Assembly (NCBI GenBank): GCA_024643655.1
Contig: JAHEMM010000002.1
Location: forward strand, 1-64,000
Length of the DNA: 64,000 nt
From: Chitinophagaceae bacterium
GTDB lineage: Bacteria > Bacteroidota > Bacteroidia > Chitinophagales > Chitinophagaceae
Direction of reading: 5' to 3'
A program made the position numbers and the translations under genes. Below are positions 5,586 through 17,604 of this stretch, piece after piece; position 1 is the first letter of the stretch, and each line of letters opens with the position of its first letter. Under the pieces are notes generated by a model. That model saw only the letters and a program-made list of their open reading frames with translations, was not told the origin of the DNA and made no database searches.

Positions 5586-6824
5586 TTAAACCCACTCACC
5601 ACCAATCATCACTCTGTCTATCAGATCAGAACCAAAGGCATAAGGCAGATAAGCTAAAGATGGAATAGATTTCGTCAAAATAAGATTTGCTTTTTTCCCA
5701 ACCATAATACTTCCCACTTCATTTTCAAGCTCCATTGCAAAAGCGCCATTGATTGTTGAAGCATTAATTACTTCTTCCGGCAACATTTTCATCTGAATAC
5801 AACTCATTGCATTCACCAGATTCATGTTACCAGAAGGTGATGAACCTGGATTGTAATCTGTCGCCAATGCTATGGCGCATCCTGCATCAATTAAAGCTCT
5901 TGCGGGTTGAAATGGCATACGTAAAAAGAAAGCAGCCGTTGGTAATAATGTACCAATTGTATTTGAACTTGCTAAAGCAGCAATTGCATCATCATCCATT
6001 GTCTCCAGATGATCGACACTTACAGCCCCTAACTTTACTCCCACTTGTGTGCCCCCCGATAAGCTCAACTGATTGGCATGTATTTTAGGTTTTAATCCAT
6101 AATTCATTCCTGCCCTGCAGATTGTTTCAGTTTCTTCAGGAGAAAAGAACCCCGTTTCACAAAACACATCAATATAATCTGCCAGTTTTTCTTTCGCAAT
6201 TTCAGGCAGCATTTCATTGATGATGAGATCAATATAACCCTGATGATTTTCTTTATATTCAACAGGGAATGAATGTGCACCAAGAAAAGTTGCTTTGATT
6301 AAAAGTTTCGATTGTTCTTTTAGTCTTTTGATAACCCGAAGCATCTTCAATTCACCTTCTATAGACAATCCATAACCGCTTTTTATTTCAATTGCTCCGG
6401 TTCCCAGCTTACTAACTTCGATAATTCTTTTCCATGCCGAAGAAAACAATTCATCTTCAGATGCATCATTCAGTTTTCTTGCTGAATTTAAAATCCCACC
6501 ACCTCTTGCTGCAATATCTGCATAACTCAATCCCTTTATTTTATCAACAAACTCCTCCTCTCTGCTTGCGGCAAAAACTATATGTGTATGGCTATCACAC
6601 CATGCAGGCAATATAAATTTATCGGATGCATCTATAGTTGTTAGCGATGTAGATAAAGAAGAAGGATGAACATCCATGCTTCCAAAATCAACTATCATCC
6701 CATCTTCGATTATTAAATATGCGTTTTCAATACAAGGAAGTTCTGCTAATTCTTTTCCACGAAGAAGCTTATTCTCATTTCTTGTATTTATTAGCTTTTT
6801 AATATTAACTATTTCTATTCGCAT
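5586..6824 (-). CDS. hutI: Imidazolonepropionase
   Basis: 412 aa; amidohydrolase motifs CDSHTHIVFAASREEEF, IEIKSGYGL, HANQLSLSGG, ALATDYNPGSSPSGNM. Confidence 0.93.
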   Translation of the reverse strand: MRIEIVNIKKLINTRNENKLLRGKELAELPCIENAYLIIEDGMIVDFGSMDVHPSSLSTSLTTIDASDKFILPAWCDSHTHIVFAASREEEFVDKIKGLSYADIAARGGGILNSARKLNDASEDELFSSAWKRIIEVSKLGTGAIEIKSGYGLSIEGELKMLRVIKRLKEQSKLLIKATFLGAHSFPVEYKENHQGYIDLIINEMLPEIAKEKLADYIDVFCETGFFSPEETETICRAGMNYGLKPKIHANQLSLSGGTQVGVKLGAVSVDHLETMDDDAIAALASSNTIGTLLPTAAFFLRMPFQPARALIDAGCAIALATDYNPGSSPSGNMNLVNAMSCIQMKMLPEEVINASTINGAFAMELENEVGSIMVGKKANLILTKSIPSLAYLPYAFGSDLIDRVMIGGEWV

Positions 6825-6847
6825 TTTTTTTGTTTGATGTGCAGCAA

Positions 6848-6895
6848 TTTAATCTATTACATTTAAAATCCCGTGTCAAAATGTATTAGATTAAA
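6848..6895. promoter_or_regulatory. Inverted repeat upstream of hutI, candidate operator
   Basis: TTTAATCTATTACATTT (6848-6864) / AAATGTATTAGATTAAA (6879-6895), 17-bp arms with one mismatch, 14-nt spacer. Confidence 0.55.
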
Positions 6896-6932
6896 TCTAT
6901 TTAAATTATTTGTCCTAAAGTTGAATAGCTAT

Positions 6933-7397
6933 TTACTTATTTGTTGAAATATTTGATTCTATTTTCCAACCAGATTTTTGCTTTCGATAAATTGACACCC
7001 AAGCATAATTCGACGTATCAATATATAGCTTCCCTAAACTATCAGGATAAGATAATATAACTTGCTTTTGAACAACCGCATATGCAAGAGAGCCATCTTC
7101 TGAGAATCTTATAAGAGGAGGTTGCACATCATCCCATTTAATAAACTCAACACTATTGAAATATGGTGTAATACGAGTCTTATTTTGTTCGATTGATAAA
7201 GTTCTTACTATTCCTTTATTTACTGAAATCATACTATCAGCAAATTCTGAAACAAAAAGATCAACATTTTTCTCAAAATGTGCTTTTCGTTCCATTTGTA
7301 ACATCTCCCTTATTTCCCTTTCATCTTTTAGAAGATCAGCTTTTTGATGACAAGAAAAAGTAAAAAAAACAAGGACACAAAAATATAGTTTTCCCAT
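6933..7397 (-). CDS. Small exported NTF2-like/DUF4440-type protein
   Basis: 154 aa; signal/lipobox-like LYFCVLVFFTFSCHQ; NTF2-like pattern EREIREMLQMERKAHFEKNVDLFVSEFADSMISVNKG. Confidence 0.6.
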   Translation of the reverse strand: MGKLYFCVLVFFTFSCHQKADLLKDEREIREMLQMERKAHFEKNVDLFVSEFADSMISVNKGIVRTLSIEQNKTRITPYFNSVEFIKWDDVQPPLIRFSEDGSLAYAVVQKQVILSYPDSLGKLYIDTSNYAWVSIYRKQKSGWKIESNISTNK

Positions 7398-11878: not shown

Positions 11879-13627
11879 ATGGGAGATTTTCAAGTTAAGA
11901 AACAAACAAAGAAATACGATGTAATTATTGTGGGCTCAGGTGCTGGTGGCGGCATGAGTGCTTATATGCTGGCCAAGGCTGGTTTGAAAGTTTGTCTGTT
12001 GGAAGCTGGTTATTTGTATGACCCGCAGAAGAATGTAACGCAAATGAAAAATCCATGGGAATCGCCACGGCGTGGAGCCAGTACTAAGATTCGCCCTTTT
12101 GGGGATTTTGATGCCTGCTATGGTGGTTGGTCGTTAGAAGGAGAACCCTATACAAAAGAAGATGGAACAGATTGGGCATGGTGGCGGGCAAGAATGCTGG
12201 GTGGACGGACGAACCATTGGGGAAGGATTTCGCTTCGCTTTGGTCCGAAAGATTTTAAAAGAAGAAGTATTGACGGCCTTGGGGAAGACTGGCCGATAGG
12301 CTATGATGATATAAAACCATACTACGACAGAGTAGATAAAATGATTGGTGTCTTTGGCACCAATGAAGGGCTTGAAAATGACCCCGATGGTTTTTTTCTG
12401 AAACCACCAAAGCCCAGATTGCATGAATTGTTTATTAAAAATGCAGCTACACAAGCAGGAGTTAAAGTGATTCCATCCCGGCTTTCGATACTTACAGAAA
12501 AAATAGAGAATGATGCAGGCCGGGGCACCTGTTTTTTCTGCGGACAGTGTAACCGTAACTGTAGTATGGCAAAAGCCGACTTCTCCTCTCCCAACGTTTT
12601 GATCTATCCTGCATTGAAAACGGGTAACATTGATATGATCACTAATGCAATGGCAAGAGAAGTACTGACGAATAAAGATGGACTGGCAACAGGTGTGTCG
12701 TACATAAGTAAAGATGATATGATGGAATATCAGGTAGAAGCCAAAGTGGTGATACTGGCTGCCAGTGCATGTGAGAGTGCAAGAATTTTATTGAATTCAA
12801 AATCAGAACGACACCCGAACGGATTGGCGAATAACAGTAATGTGGTGGGAAAATATTTACATGATTCTACAGGAGCTGCATTAGGTGGGCTGTTACCACA
12901 ATTATTCGATAGAAAAAGATATAATGAAGATGGTGTGGGTGGTATGCATATTTATTCGCCCTGGTGGCTGGATAATAAGAAACTGGATTTTCCGAGAGGT
13001 TATCATGTAGAATATTGGGGTGGTATGAGCCAGCCATCATATGGATTTAATTGGGGAATAGAAAACCTGAATGGGAAATATGTTGTGAATGGCACACAGA
13101 AAGAAGGCGGCGGTTATGGTAAATCGCTCAAAGAAGACCATCGCTACTTTTATGGTTGCGGTGTAGGTATGGCCGGCCGTGGCGAAGCTATAGCATTGGA
13201 AAGCAATTATTGTGAGATCGATAAAAACACGGTTGATAAATTTGGTATCCCTGTATTAAAGTTTAATGTAAAATGGAGTGAGCATGAAATAAAACAGGCT
13301 AAACACATGAAGGAAACCTTTAAAGAAGTGATGCATAATATGGGTGCCGTAATAACCTGGGGTGGTGATGATGATGAAAAAAATCAATGGGGCTTAGCTA
13401 AACCAGGAGAAATAATTCATGAAGCCGGAACAGTGCGAATGGGTAACGATGCTAAGAAATCTGCTTTGAACAAATGGAGCCAGGCGCATGATTGTAAGAA
13501 TTTGTTTTGTGTAGATGGAGGGCAATTTGTAAGTCAGGCTGATAAAAATATTACCTGGACTATCCTGGCTTTGAGTATGCGGGCCAGTGAATATATTATA
13601 GATGAAATGAAGAAACAAAATTTATAA
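11879..13627 (+). CDS. GMC-type FAD-dependent oxidoreductase
   Basis: 582 aa; DVIIVGSGAGGGMSAYMLAKAGLKVCLLEAG; MLGGRTNHWGR; C-terminal EAGTVRMGNDAKKSALNKWSQAHDCKNLFCVDGGQF. Confidence 0.92.
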   Translation: MGDFQVKKQTKKYDVIIVGSGAGGGMSAYMLAKAGLKVCLLEAGYLYDPQKNVTQMKNPWESPRRGASTKIRPFGDFDACYGGWSLEGEPYTKEDGTDWAWWRARMLGGRTNHWGRISLRFGPKDFKRRSIDGLGEDWPIGYDDIKPYYDRVDKMIGVFGTNEGLENDPDGFFLKPPKPRLHELFIKNAATQAGVKVIPSRLSILTEKIENDAGRGTCFFCGQCNRNCSMAKADFSSPNVLIYPALKTGNIDMITNAMAREVLTNKDGLATGVSYISKDDMMEYQVEAKVVILAASACESARILLNSKSERHPNGLANNSNVVGKYLHDSTGAALGGLLPQLFDRKRYNEDGVGGMHIYSPWWLDNKKLDFPRGYHVEYWGGMSQPSYGFNWGIENLNGKYVVNGTQKEGGGYGKSLKEDHRYFYGCGVGMAGRGEAIALESNYCEIDKNTVDKFGIPVLKFNVKWSEHEIKQAKHMKETFKEVMHNMGAVITWGGDDDEKNQWGLAKPGEIIHEAGTVRMGNDAKKSALNKWSQAHDCKNLFCVDGGQFVSQADKNITWTILALSMRASEYIIDEMKKQNL

Positions 13628-13660: not shown

Positions 13661-14323
13661 ATGGATAGACGTAAATCGTTAAAACTAATTGTAACCGGTG
13701 CAGTGGCTGCACCAGCGGTATTGACAGGTTGTAAAACGAATGATAAGAAAACAGAAGCTGCAGCTGATGACCCAAAGTTTACACTTGATCGCAACCCTGA
13801 TGAACTGAAGTATGAAAAAAAATTGTTGGCGGAAGAGAAGTTCTTTACCGAACATGAAATGGCAACGATAACAATACTTGCAGATATTATTATACCGAAA
13901 GATGAAATAAGTGGCAGTGCATCAGATGCAAAAGTTCCTGAATTTATTGAGTTCATTGTCCACGATATGCCAAACCATCAGGTTCCCATGAAAGGAGGGC
14001 TTCGTTGGTTGGATATGTATTGTTTAAAAACGTATGAACAATCATTTGTGGATTGTACCAATTTGCAGCAAATAGAACTGATTGATCAGATCGCTTATCC
14101 CAAAAAAGCAAAACCAGCAATGAGCCAGGGAGTAAAATTCTTTAGTCTGATGAGGGATTTAACTGCCAGTGGTTTTTATACTTCTGCAATTGGTGTAAAA
14201 GATATTGGCTATGCAGGCAACACTCCCACACAATGGAATGGTGTTCCGGAAGAAGTATTACAACAATATAAACTGGCTTACACTGAAAAAGAATTAAATG
14301 AATGTGTGAGTTTTAATAAATAA
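13661..14323 (+). CDS. Gluconate 2-dehydrogenase subunit 3-like protein, lipoprotein-like N-terminus
   Basis: 220 aa; MDRRKSLKLIVTGAVAAPAVLTGC; FFTEHEMATITILADIIIPKDEISGSASDAKVPEFIEFIV. Confidence 0.85.
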   Translation: MDRRKSLKLIVTGAVAAPAVLTGCKTNDKKTEAAADDPKFTLDRNPDELKYEKKLLAEEKFFTEHEMATITILADIIIPKDEISGSASDAKVPEFIEFIVHDMPNHQVPMKGGLRWLDMYCLKTYEQSFVDCTNLQQIELIDQIAYPKKAKPAMSQGVKFFSLMRDLTASGFYTSAIGVKDIGYAGNTPTQWNGVPEEVLQQYKLAYTEKELNECVSFNK

Positions 14324-14359: not shown

Positions 14360-15358
14360 GTGACAATATTTGCTGCTGGAAAAACAATTGGGTCCTTATA
14401 CAGCAGTGTTAAAAGACAGCATAGCTTTATCAATAAAGAACTCGGGAACATCTTAGCAAATGCGCAAGCTACAAATGACGGCAGTTTAGAAGCATCCGAC
14501 TTTAAAAAAATAACCAATTATTACGGCTTGGCCGTACCTGCTATACTAGGCGATGCTATCTGCGCATTACGAGGTTTTAAAATGAGCTATAAGGAAAGAC
14601 TTGCACTTACTTATCAAGGAGCTATGACTGGATTATTTGACGATTTTTTTGATAAATATGATATGAGTGATGAAAAAGTGATGACTTTTATGGAACACCC
14701 TGAAGAATTAGAAGGAGACAACTCTGCTGAAAAACTTTTCCTGTTCTTTTATAAAAATGCATTGGCTAATGCACACAACCCTTCATTGGTTTTACAATAC
14801 CTCCGTGAAGTATATAAAGCTCAGGTAGAAAGTAAAAAACAGGCAACGACAGGATTAACCAAAGAAGAGATTCTTGACATTACTATACGAAAAGGAGGAG
14901 TTTCTGTTTTGTTTTATAGAGCAGCTTTATGTCATCCATTTGTAGCTAATGAAGAAACTGCATTACATCAAATGGGAGGATTAATGCAATTCGGTAATGA
15001 TGTGTTTGATATTTATAAAGATAATAACGCAGGTATCCATACACTCGTTACAACAATGCAAAATACAGACAGTGTAAGAAAATTATTTACTGCAGAACTA
15101 AATAAAAGCATTGCGTTAACAAATTCACTGTCATACCCATTAAAAAACAAAAAAAAATCTCTGCAATTGGTAATAATGAGTCTTTGTAGCAGATGTTATG
15201 TATTCTTTGACCAATTGGAAGAAAATGAAAAATCGACTAATAATATTTTTACAATTGAGAAATATTCCAGAAAGCAGCTTGTTTGCGATATGGATTTATT
15301 GATTAATAAATGGAAAACAATACGCTATTTTATTAAGCAGAAATATCACATTTATTAG
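14360..15358 (+). CDS. Putative class I isoprenoid (terpene/prenyl) synthase-fold protein, GTG start
   Basis: 332 aa, all-helical appearance; first acidic motif GLFDDFFDKYD and second GGLMQFGNDVFDIYKDNNAGIHT, preceded by RKGGVSVLFYRAAL. Confidence 0.6.
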   Translation: MTIFAAGKTIGSLYSSVKRQHSFINKELGNILANAQATNDGSLEASDFKKITNYYGLAVPAILGDAICALRGFKMSYKERLALTYQGAMTGLFDDFFDKYDMSDEKVMTFMEHPEELEGDNSAEKLFLFFYKNALANAHNPSLVLQYLREVYKAQVESKKQATTGLTKEEILDITIRKGGVSVLFYRAALCHPFVANEETALHQMGGLMQFGNDVFDIYKDNNAGIHTLVTTMQNTDSVRKLFTAELNKSIALTNSLSYPLKNKKKSLQLVIMSLCSRCYVFFDQLEENEKSTNNIFTIEKYSRKQLVCDMDLLINKWKTIRYFIKQKYHIY

Positions 15359-15415
15359 CCAGTTGAAATGATAAGATATCTTCTATTGCTATTAAGTGTT
15401 ATTGTTAAAGAATAT

Positions 15416-15448
15416 AAAAAAAGGCTACTTAGTATGTAGCCTTTTTTA
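15416..15448. terminator. Bidirectional terminator between convergent genes
   Basis: AAAAAAAGGCTAC-TTAGTAT-GTAGCCTTTTTT. Confidence 0.85.
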
Positions 15449-15468
15449 TTAAATGATAACATTAGTTA

Positions 15469-17604
15469 TTATGCAAATTCTTCTTTTTCAGTTCTACTAT
15501 ATTCATCAATCAGCTTACGCTGAAGTTCATATGGAACTGCTTCATAAGATTGAAACTCCATTTTAAACTTTGCTTTTCCTTGTGTGATGGAACGTATTGA
15601 GGATGAATAGCCTTCCATTTCTGCCAATGGTACTTTTGCTATTATTTTCTGAAAGTGACCTTCACTATCAATACCCTCTACAATTGCACGACGACTTTGC
15701 AAGTCGCCCATAACAGAACCGGTAAGATCATCAGGACATAGTACTTCAACATGATAAATCGGCTCAAGAATCTGAGGATCTGCCTGTTGAAACGCCTGGC
15801 GGAATGCTTGTAAGCCAGCAATCTTAAATGAAATATCATTACTATCTACCGGATGCATTTTACCATCATACACACAAACTCTAATATCTCTTGCATAAGA
15901 ACCTGTCAACGGGCCGTTATGCATTTTCTCCATTACTCCTTTTAAAATCGAAGGAAGAAATCTTGTATCGATAGCACCACCAACAATACAATTATAAAAT
16001 ACAAGTTTGCCGCCCCAATCTAGTTCATGAATATCTCTGGCTCTTACATTCAAATCATTTGGTTCCGGCATACCCTCATACCAGGGCTCAATTCTCATGT
16101 ACACTTCGCCAAACTGCCCGGCACCACCGCTTTGTTTTTTATGTCTATAATTTGCATCCGCCATTTTACGAATCGTTTCCCGATATGCAATTTTGGGTTT
16201 TACAAATTTTACATCCAATCGATGCTGATGTTCAATTTTCCATTTGGCAACAGCCAAATGCATATCACCCTGACAATGGATTAGTGTTTGTTTTAATTCT
16301 GATGATACTTCTACTATTAATGTTGGATCTTCTTCTCTTAGCTGATGTAATGCAATAGAAAGTTTTTCTTCCTCCCCTTTCTTTAACGACTCAATAGCTA
16401 CCGTCATATTATAAGAAGGGAATTCAATCGGAGGAAGCTCATAGTTTTTCCCTTTTGAATGCAAAGTGTTATTTACATGTGTATTTTTTAATTTTAATGT
16501 GGCGCCAATATCTCCTGCTACCAATTCATGTATTGTAGTTCTTTTATTACCTTCTACCAGAAAAAGTTGGTTTATCTTTTCAGATACACCAGTACTCTCA
16601 TTTTCCAACTCCATTCCTACTTTTACTGTACCAGAATAAACTTTAAAGAAAGACATTTCACCTACATGTGCTTCTGAAATGGTTTTATAAATAAAAATAC
16701 ATGTGGGTCCGTTTGCATCACAAGTTAATTTATCGCCATTCTTTGTAATTTGAGGAGGCATCTCATTAGCACTCGGGCATACATTATCAATGAAGCCCAT
16801 TAATCTTCCACTTCCCATGTTTCTTTCTGCAGACAAGCAGAATAATGGAAAAAGATCATGGTTGATCATGGCTTTTTTTAGTCCGGTTTTCATTTCATCT
16901 TCATCCAACTCACCTTTATCAAAATACTTTTCCATTAAAGTTTCATCATTACTGGCAATAGCTTCAATCAATTGCTTATGTAATTCATTTGCTTTTTCTT
17001 TTTCATTATCCGGTATAGGAAGTTTTTCAGGTTTGCCTCCTCCATCTTTGAATTGATACATTGTCATTCGCAACACATCAATAATTTCGTGAAACCCAAC
17101 TCCAGTTTGATTTGGATACTGAACTACAACAATTTTATTTCCAAAATGTGCTTTTGCTTCGCTTACCGTTTTGTCAAAATCAGCGCTATCTTGATCAAGT
17201 TTGTTTACAGCAAAGATCATCGGTGTTTTAAACTTTTCTGTATAATCCCAAATGATATCAGCACCAACTTCTACACCCATTTCAGCATTCAATAACATTA
17301 CTCCAGTATCAGCTACTTTTAATGCTGAGATTACTTCCCCTTTAAAATCATCATACCCAGGCGTATCAAGTATATTTATTTTATATCCCCGCCATTTTGT
17401 ATGTAATAATTTACTGAAAATGGAATTACCTCGTTCTTGTTCTAATTCGTGGTAATCACCCGTTGTGTTTTTTTCCTGAATACTGCCTCGTCGGGAAATT
17501 AATCCGGCTTCGAAAAGCATGCATTCGGATAAAGTTGTTTTGCCGACACCTGCATGTCCAAGCAAAACAATATTTTTTACATGTGAAGTATCAAAATCTG
17601 GCAT
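15469..17604 (-). CDS. Elongation factor G paralog (EF-G2-like)
   Basis: 711 aa; GHAGVGKTT, NILDTPGYDDF, NKLD; EF-G domain IV/V sequence KKQSGGAGQFGEVYMRIEP, VMGDLQSRRAIVEGID. Confidence 0.88.
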   Translation of the reverse strand: MPDFDTSHVKNIVLLGHAGVGKTTLSECMLFEAGLISRRGSIQEKNTTGDYHELEQERGNSIFSKLLHTKWRGYKINILDTPGYDDFKGEVISALKVADTGVMLLNAEMGVEVGADIIWDYTEKFKTPMIFAVNKLDQDSADFDKTVSEAKAHFGNKIVVVQYPNQTGVGFHEIIDVLRMTMYQFKDGGGKPEKLPIPDNEKEKANELHKQLIEAIASNDETLMEKYFDKGELDEDEMKTGLKKAMINHDLFPLFCLSAERNMGSGRLMGFIDNVCPSANEMPPQITKNGDKLTCDANGPTCIFIYKTISEAHVGEMSFFKVYSGTVKVGMELENESTGVSEKINQLFLVEGNKRTTIHELVAGDIGATLKLKNTHVNNTLHSKGKNYELPPIEFPSYNMTVAIESLKKGEEEKLSIALHQLREEDPTLIVEVSSELKQTLIHCQGDMHLAVAKWKIEHQHRLDVKFVKPKIAYRETIRKMADANYRHKKQSGGAGQFGEVYMRIEPWYEGMPEPNDLNVRARDIHELDWGGKLVFYNCIVGGAIDTRFLPSILKGVMEKMHNGPLTGSYARDIRVCVYDGKMHPVDSNDISFKIAGLQAFRQAFQQADPQILEPIYHVEVLCPDDLTGSVMGDLQSRRAIVEGIDSEGHFQKIIAKVPLAEMEGYSSSIRSITQGKAKFKMEFQSYEAVPYELQRKLIDEYSRTEKEEFA

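Follow-up and report, generated by a model that had tools for sequence, protein, structure and literature searches.

Squalene, phytoene and dehydrosqualene synthases (PF00494, among them CrtM) carry the motif pair DxxxD and QxxNxxxDxxxD. Prenyl diphosphate synthases (PF00348) have DDxxD and Q-x2-(N/D)D-x2-D, and canonical class I terpene synthases (Terpene_syn_C_2, Terpene_synth_C) have a second metal motif of the form (N/D)Dxx(S/T)xxxE, the NSE/DTE triad, followed by a downstream Arg. In the UbiA-superfamily prenyltransferases, which are integral membrane proteins, an NDxxDxxxD motif comes first. We analysed a window of 64,000 nucleotides from a Chitinophagaceae bacterium (contig JAHEMM010000002.1), which encodes a 332-aa protein that has features in common with each of these groups. 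Judged from its sequence and predicted structure, this protein very probably resembles the carotenoid-, squalene- and terpene-making enzymes in both fold and mode of action. We consider it highly probable that the gene encodes an all-helical enzyme of the class I isoprenoid-synthase fold, belonging to an unnamed family, with predicted Mg2+/allylic diphosphate chemistry, and that it is an accessory gene in a core block of a GMC oxidoreductase and a subunit-3-like gene.

Gene layout, motifs and nearest known enzymes

The open reading frame with its GTG start was recovered at the coordinates given in the initial annotation, and so were the positions of its two acidic motifs (DDFFDKYD from D94, nt 14639, and NDVFDIYKD from N213, nt 14996). 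The stretch RKGGVSVLFY begins at R177 (nt 14888), and its K178-G179-G180 probably marks the site of the class I diphosphate-sensing Lys and helix kink. The reported distance of 36 nt to the subunit-3-like gene, itself downstream of the GMC oxidoreductase gene, was reproduced as well; the gap between these two genes is 33 nt, and all three genes lie on the same strand. The subunit-3-like protein carries an Arg-Arg leader and a lipobox-like LTGC. A terminator-like hairpin sits between the 332-aa gene and the convergent EF-G-like gene (Table 1).

Table 1. Features of the locus, in window coordinates
Feature	Position	Strand	Details
GMC oxidoreductase	11879..13627	+	PF00732/PF05199
Gluconate-2-dehydrogenase subunit-3-like protein	13661..14323	+	PF13618, E 6e-34
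Class I isoprenoid-synthase-like gene	14360..15358	+	GTG start, 332 aa; ORF, family alignment, AlphaFold2, Foldseek PDB
First metal motif DDFFD (D94, D95, D98)	14639..14653	+	C-terminal end of helix 77-98 (DSSP of model)
K178-G179-G180	14891..14899	+	Within helix 168-187; K178/G179 invariant, G180 >90% (n=71)
Second metal motif Q210-x2-N213-D214-x2-D217-x3-D221	14987..15022	+	End of helix 198-216
Arg304 near C-terminus	15269..15271	+	94 residues past Q210; >90% conserved; putative role
Terminator-like palindromic hairpin		15417..15447	none	A-/T-runs either side; reported as -, palindrome reads both ways
Elongation factor G-like gene	15469..17604	-	Closes conserved GMC block

In the 332-aa protein, D94-x3-D98 is followed 116 residues after D94 by Q210, which opens the arrangement Q210-x2-N213-x3-D217-x3-D221. 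Phytoene-synthase-type enzymes of the Chitinophagales, including the one of the host genome, show D-x3-D and, 116 residues after the first Asp, Q-x2-N-x3-D-x3-D, whereas the corresponding spacing in the prenyl diphosphate synthases of these genomes is 124-127. The two motifs had initially been described as having the order and approximate spacing of class I prenyl/terpene synthases. The order is confirmed, but the spacing matches squalene/phytoene synthases better than prenyl diphosphate synthases, and the strict NSE triad is absent. By sequence, the motif geometry is nearest to that of the head-to-head synthases.

The PF00494 synthases also have in common with the 332-aa protein a Gly at Q-4 and an Arg at Q-130, in the same register. 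Their Arg three residues before motif 1 and the Arg of RDxxxD correspond to G91 and F216, and the 332-aa protein has an extra Asp beside the Asn (ND), a longer N-terminal region and no clear similarity beyond the motifs. When an ungapped profile was slid against phytoene synthase over 490 offsets, the motif register ranked first (z 6.3), with controls reaching z 6.0; it fell to rank 21 of 490 once the two motif blocks were masked. Comparisons by hhalign with IDS, phytoene synthase and a Bacteroidota terpene synthase were not significant and were little or no better than those with reversed or unrelated controls. The kinship to phytoene synthases is therefore carried mainly by the motifs.

Profile searches gave a similar picture. 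The 332-aa protein alone returned nothing of note in Pfam, NCBIfam or PDB sequences; neither PF00494 nor, over the cut-off, any terpene-synthase Pfam matched it. PF00494 was also missing among the families listed for 36 relatives, and two distant relatives matched Terpene_synth_C weakly. PF00348 matched four of the 36 relatives weakly (best E 6.7e-5) and the 332-aa protein itself not at all, while weak sequence matches in register led to the prenyl synthases 1rtr, 8a7b and 1v4j. Because the protein lacks the SQS/PSY arginines, the IDS elements GGKxRP and RR, and also the Ser/Thr and Glu of the NSE triad, we did not file it in any of these families. It represents an uncharacterised new family within a known superfamily, which carries no name yet in Pfam or NCBIfam, and no description of it was found in the literature searched. 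A match to the NCBIfam anti-phage model DS41_1 (E 7e-4; 18.7 bits, with the cut-off at 370) was rejected: it occurred in one of 36 relatives, and similar weak matches appeared in unrelated genomes.

Conservation and predicted fold of the family

Relatives of the 332-aa protein were present in five of 35 congeneric genomes, in 61 of 399 genomes sampled from the order and in 10 of 396 from a phylum-wide sample, which again included members of the order. A scan of GTDB genomes yielded 80 named loci, nearly all from Bacteroidota (Chitinophagaceae, Bacteroidales, Paludibacter, Cytophagales, Flammeovirga, Roseivirga, Crocinitomicaceae), with one bin labelled Chlorobiota. No homolog was found in the plasmid collection.

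In a core alignment of 71 relatives (31-61% identity), Q20, R80, D94, D95, D98, Q161, K178, G179, G206, Q210, N213, D214, D221, T228, V281 and C309 are invariant; more than 90% of the sequences also keep D217 and R304. The check on the acidic motifs also held in a merged set of 99 sequences reaching down to ~25% identity, where D94, D98, K178, Q210, D214, D217 and D221 are 98-100% conserved. Since the metal-motif residues are invariant or nearly so across such divergent relatives, the motifs exceed what chance would produce.

AlphaFold2, run on the 71-sequence alignment, returned an all-helical model (mean pLDDT 96.1, pTM 0.93) in which both acidic motifs lie near helix C-termini, the helices ending at residues 98 and 216. 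A Foldseek search of the PDB with this model listed 50 matches, all of them class I isoprenoid-synthase or UbiA folds (prob 0.90-1.00). The best match among those listed was the dehydrosqualene synthase CrtM (prob 1.00, TM up to 0.57 on the target); others were human squalene synthase, UbiA, hydropyrene synthase, trichodiene synthase, and GGPP and FPP synthases. The UbiA enzymes share the NDxxDxxxD motif with the 332-aa protein, where it comes second. The E-values were modest (0.003 and up, none reaching 0.001) and TM was about 0.5 to any single known family, so that the fold class is clear but none of the known families is close. The predicted structure thus is an isoprenoid-synthase-type alpha bundle. 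Together, the Bacteroidota-wide relatives, the correctly ordered and near-invariant metal motifs, the AlphaFold2 model and the Foldseek matches support the class I reading. The core call of the initial annotation, a divergent class I isoprenoid-synthase-like protein, had been reached from motifs alone and was right.

Predicted reaction and neighbouring genes in other branches

In the proposed mechanism, Mg2+ would be bound by the two acidic clusters where the helical bundle opens, and K178 and R304 may assist in holding an allylic diphosphate (e.g. FPP or GGPP) and in ionising it. The resulting carbocation would then either undergo cyclisation or be coupled to another chain. Given the PSY/SQS motif geometry, we give equal weight to terpene cyclisation and to a reaction of the head-to-head or a related type.

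The protein could conceivably be a true terpene cyclase that takes a single prenyl diphosphate at its DDxxD and NDxxDxxxD motifs and closes it into a ring, as the canonical bacterial class I terpene synthases do, although we lean against this. Such an enzyme would share the class I fold, and hydropyrene and trichodiene synthase are indeed among the structural matches; NDxxDxxxD is spaced like (N/D)Dxx(S/T)xxxE, and the conserved Arg about 90 residues downstream is placed like that of the RY motif. However, nearly all members of the family have Asp where the NSE triad calls for Ser/Thr and Glu, the Pfam terpene-synthase profiles stayed below cut-off for the 332-aa protein, and the motif spacing fits phytoene synthase best.

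The gene pairing found in a sister branch also speaks for cyclisation. DxDD is the motif of class II terpene cyclases. In a sister branch from Chitinophagaceae, the next gene encodes a member of a 370-410-aa family with a hydrophobic leader and an invariant DxDD (DLDDT, DADDS, DIDDT and similar), to which no Pfam model matched. Examples of ~385 aa are found at L171:5825-6988 (-), L176:6578-7804 (+) and L124:9019-10185 (+). Eleven of the 12 best-scoring members adjoin a homolog of the 332-aa protein, co-directionally or convergently, and the two families co-occur in 21 genomes against 5.7 expected (Fisher p 6e-10, uncorrected for kinship). The best PDB matches of a first profile of the DxDD family were drimenol synthase (E 0.012) and a related HAD-fused protein (E 0.033). 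Bacterial drimenol synthases have a class II DxDTT motif, located at 331-335 in AsDMS (PMC9128629). A larger profile lost the drimenol-synthase match in the PDB, and the single-sequence fold of the partner failed (pLDDT 36), so that we treat the class II reading as a lead: the family is possibly one of class II terpene cyclases. In the host genome of the 332-aa gene, neither a member of the DxDD family nor a PF13243 squalene-hopene cyclase was found.

Nine further loci have a SAM methyltransferase gene (PF02353/PF08241) next to the homolog or one gene off, in two orientations, and this proximity suggests C-methylated isoprenoids. The CMAS/UbiE-type genes include L061:6501-7364 (-) and those upstream of the homolog in L059, L073 and L079. 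Directly upstream and co-directional in L055, L056, L070, L105, L109, L116 and L119 is a gene for a 102-158-aa protein, SRPBCC/AHSA1-like by eye; this arrangement may reflect local synteny. We tentatively propose, as a doubtful but possible reading of these neighbourhoods, that this family supplies the class I component of a Bacteroidota terpenoid system that has so far gone unrecognised. The family would be paired with a possibly exported DxDD class II-type cyclase in the Chitinophagaceae branch and with a C-methyltransferase in other branches, and might give rise to cyclised or methylated isoprenoids.

The GMC block and the remaining alternatives

The initial annotation had further suggested that the GMC oxidoreductase, the subunit-3-like protein and the 332-aa enzyme might make up a small cassette for forming and oxidising terpenoids. 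Recurrence of the three-gene order was confirmed in part. In a tree of 102 relatives, the six sequences encoded after GMC-subunit 3, or one gene further, form one clade that includes the 332-aa protein (support 100/99), and in these six loci the genes are co-directional and tightly spaced. In other branches of the family no GMC gene lies next to the homolog, and the immediate neighbours are mostly housekeeping genes.

The GMC gene itself was found in 34 of 35 congeneric genomes (79-100% identity), 29 of which lack the 332-aa gene; only five of the 35 genomes have it. In congeners without the 332-aa gene the block usually runs GMC-subunit 3-beta/gamma-crystallin-like gene, often followed by a convergent EF-G-like gene. 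Where both are present, the homolog of the 332-aa gene precedes the crystallin-like gene in L045, L046, L047 and L048 and comes after it in L088. We conclude from these distributions that the 332-aa gene is an accessory in a core block. Because the GMC/subunit-3 pair is such a genus-core block, a cassette specific for terpenoids is not supported, and we regard it as unlikely. Cotranscription of the 332-aa gene with GMC-subunit 3 is plausible, but the GMC enzyme need not act on the product of the 332-aa enzyme.

In the locus studied here the crystallin-like gene is absent from the block (15358-15469), and related genes are found on another contig of the genome (G000:C168). In two congeners (G009 and G024) an unrelated 406-aa gene fills the position after subunit 3 (L270, ~5830-7048), which suggests that genes turn over at this position.

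The two remaining alternatives concern the 332-aa protein itself. A chain-elongating prenyl diphosphate synthase might be considered, given the likeness of the second motif to FQxxDDxxD of IDSs and the weak in-register matches to PF00348 and to IDS structures in the PDB. However, GGKxRP and the RR after DDxxD, both present in the canonical short-chain IDSs of the genus, are missing, the spacing deviates as described above, and the host genome already encodes two canonical IDSs; we thus consider elongation very improbable. That the fold was kept and catalysis lost, leaving a binding or regulatory protein, is hardly to be expected either, since the metal ligands are almost invariant across a very divergent family, apart from a few distant members (e.g. 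L036 and L040) that miss part of motif 1.

Terpenoid genome mining depends on profile libraries, and this Bacteroidota-wide family is invisible to Pfam and NCBIfam. If the terpenoid-system reading is true, there would be products that profile-based mining would miss. If active, the family would constitute a new branch of class I isoprenoid synthases, and its mix of motifs, with the spacing of phytoene synthases and an NDxxDxxxD second motif, would bear on the divergence of prenyl-coupling and cyclising enzymes. Its activity would also point to unexplored isoprenoids in environmental bacteria.
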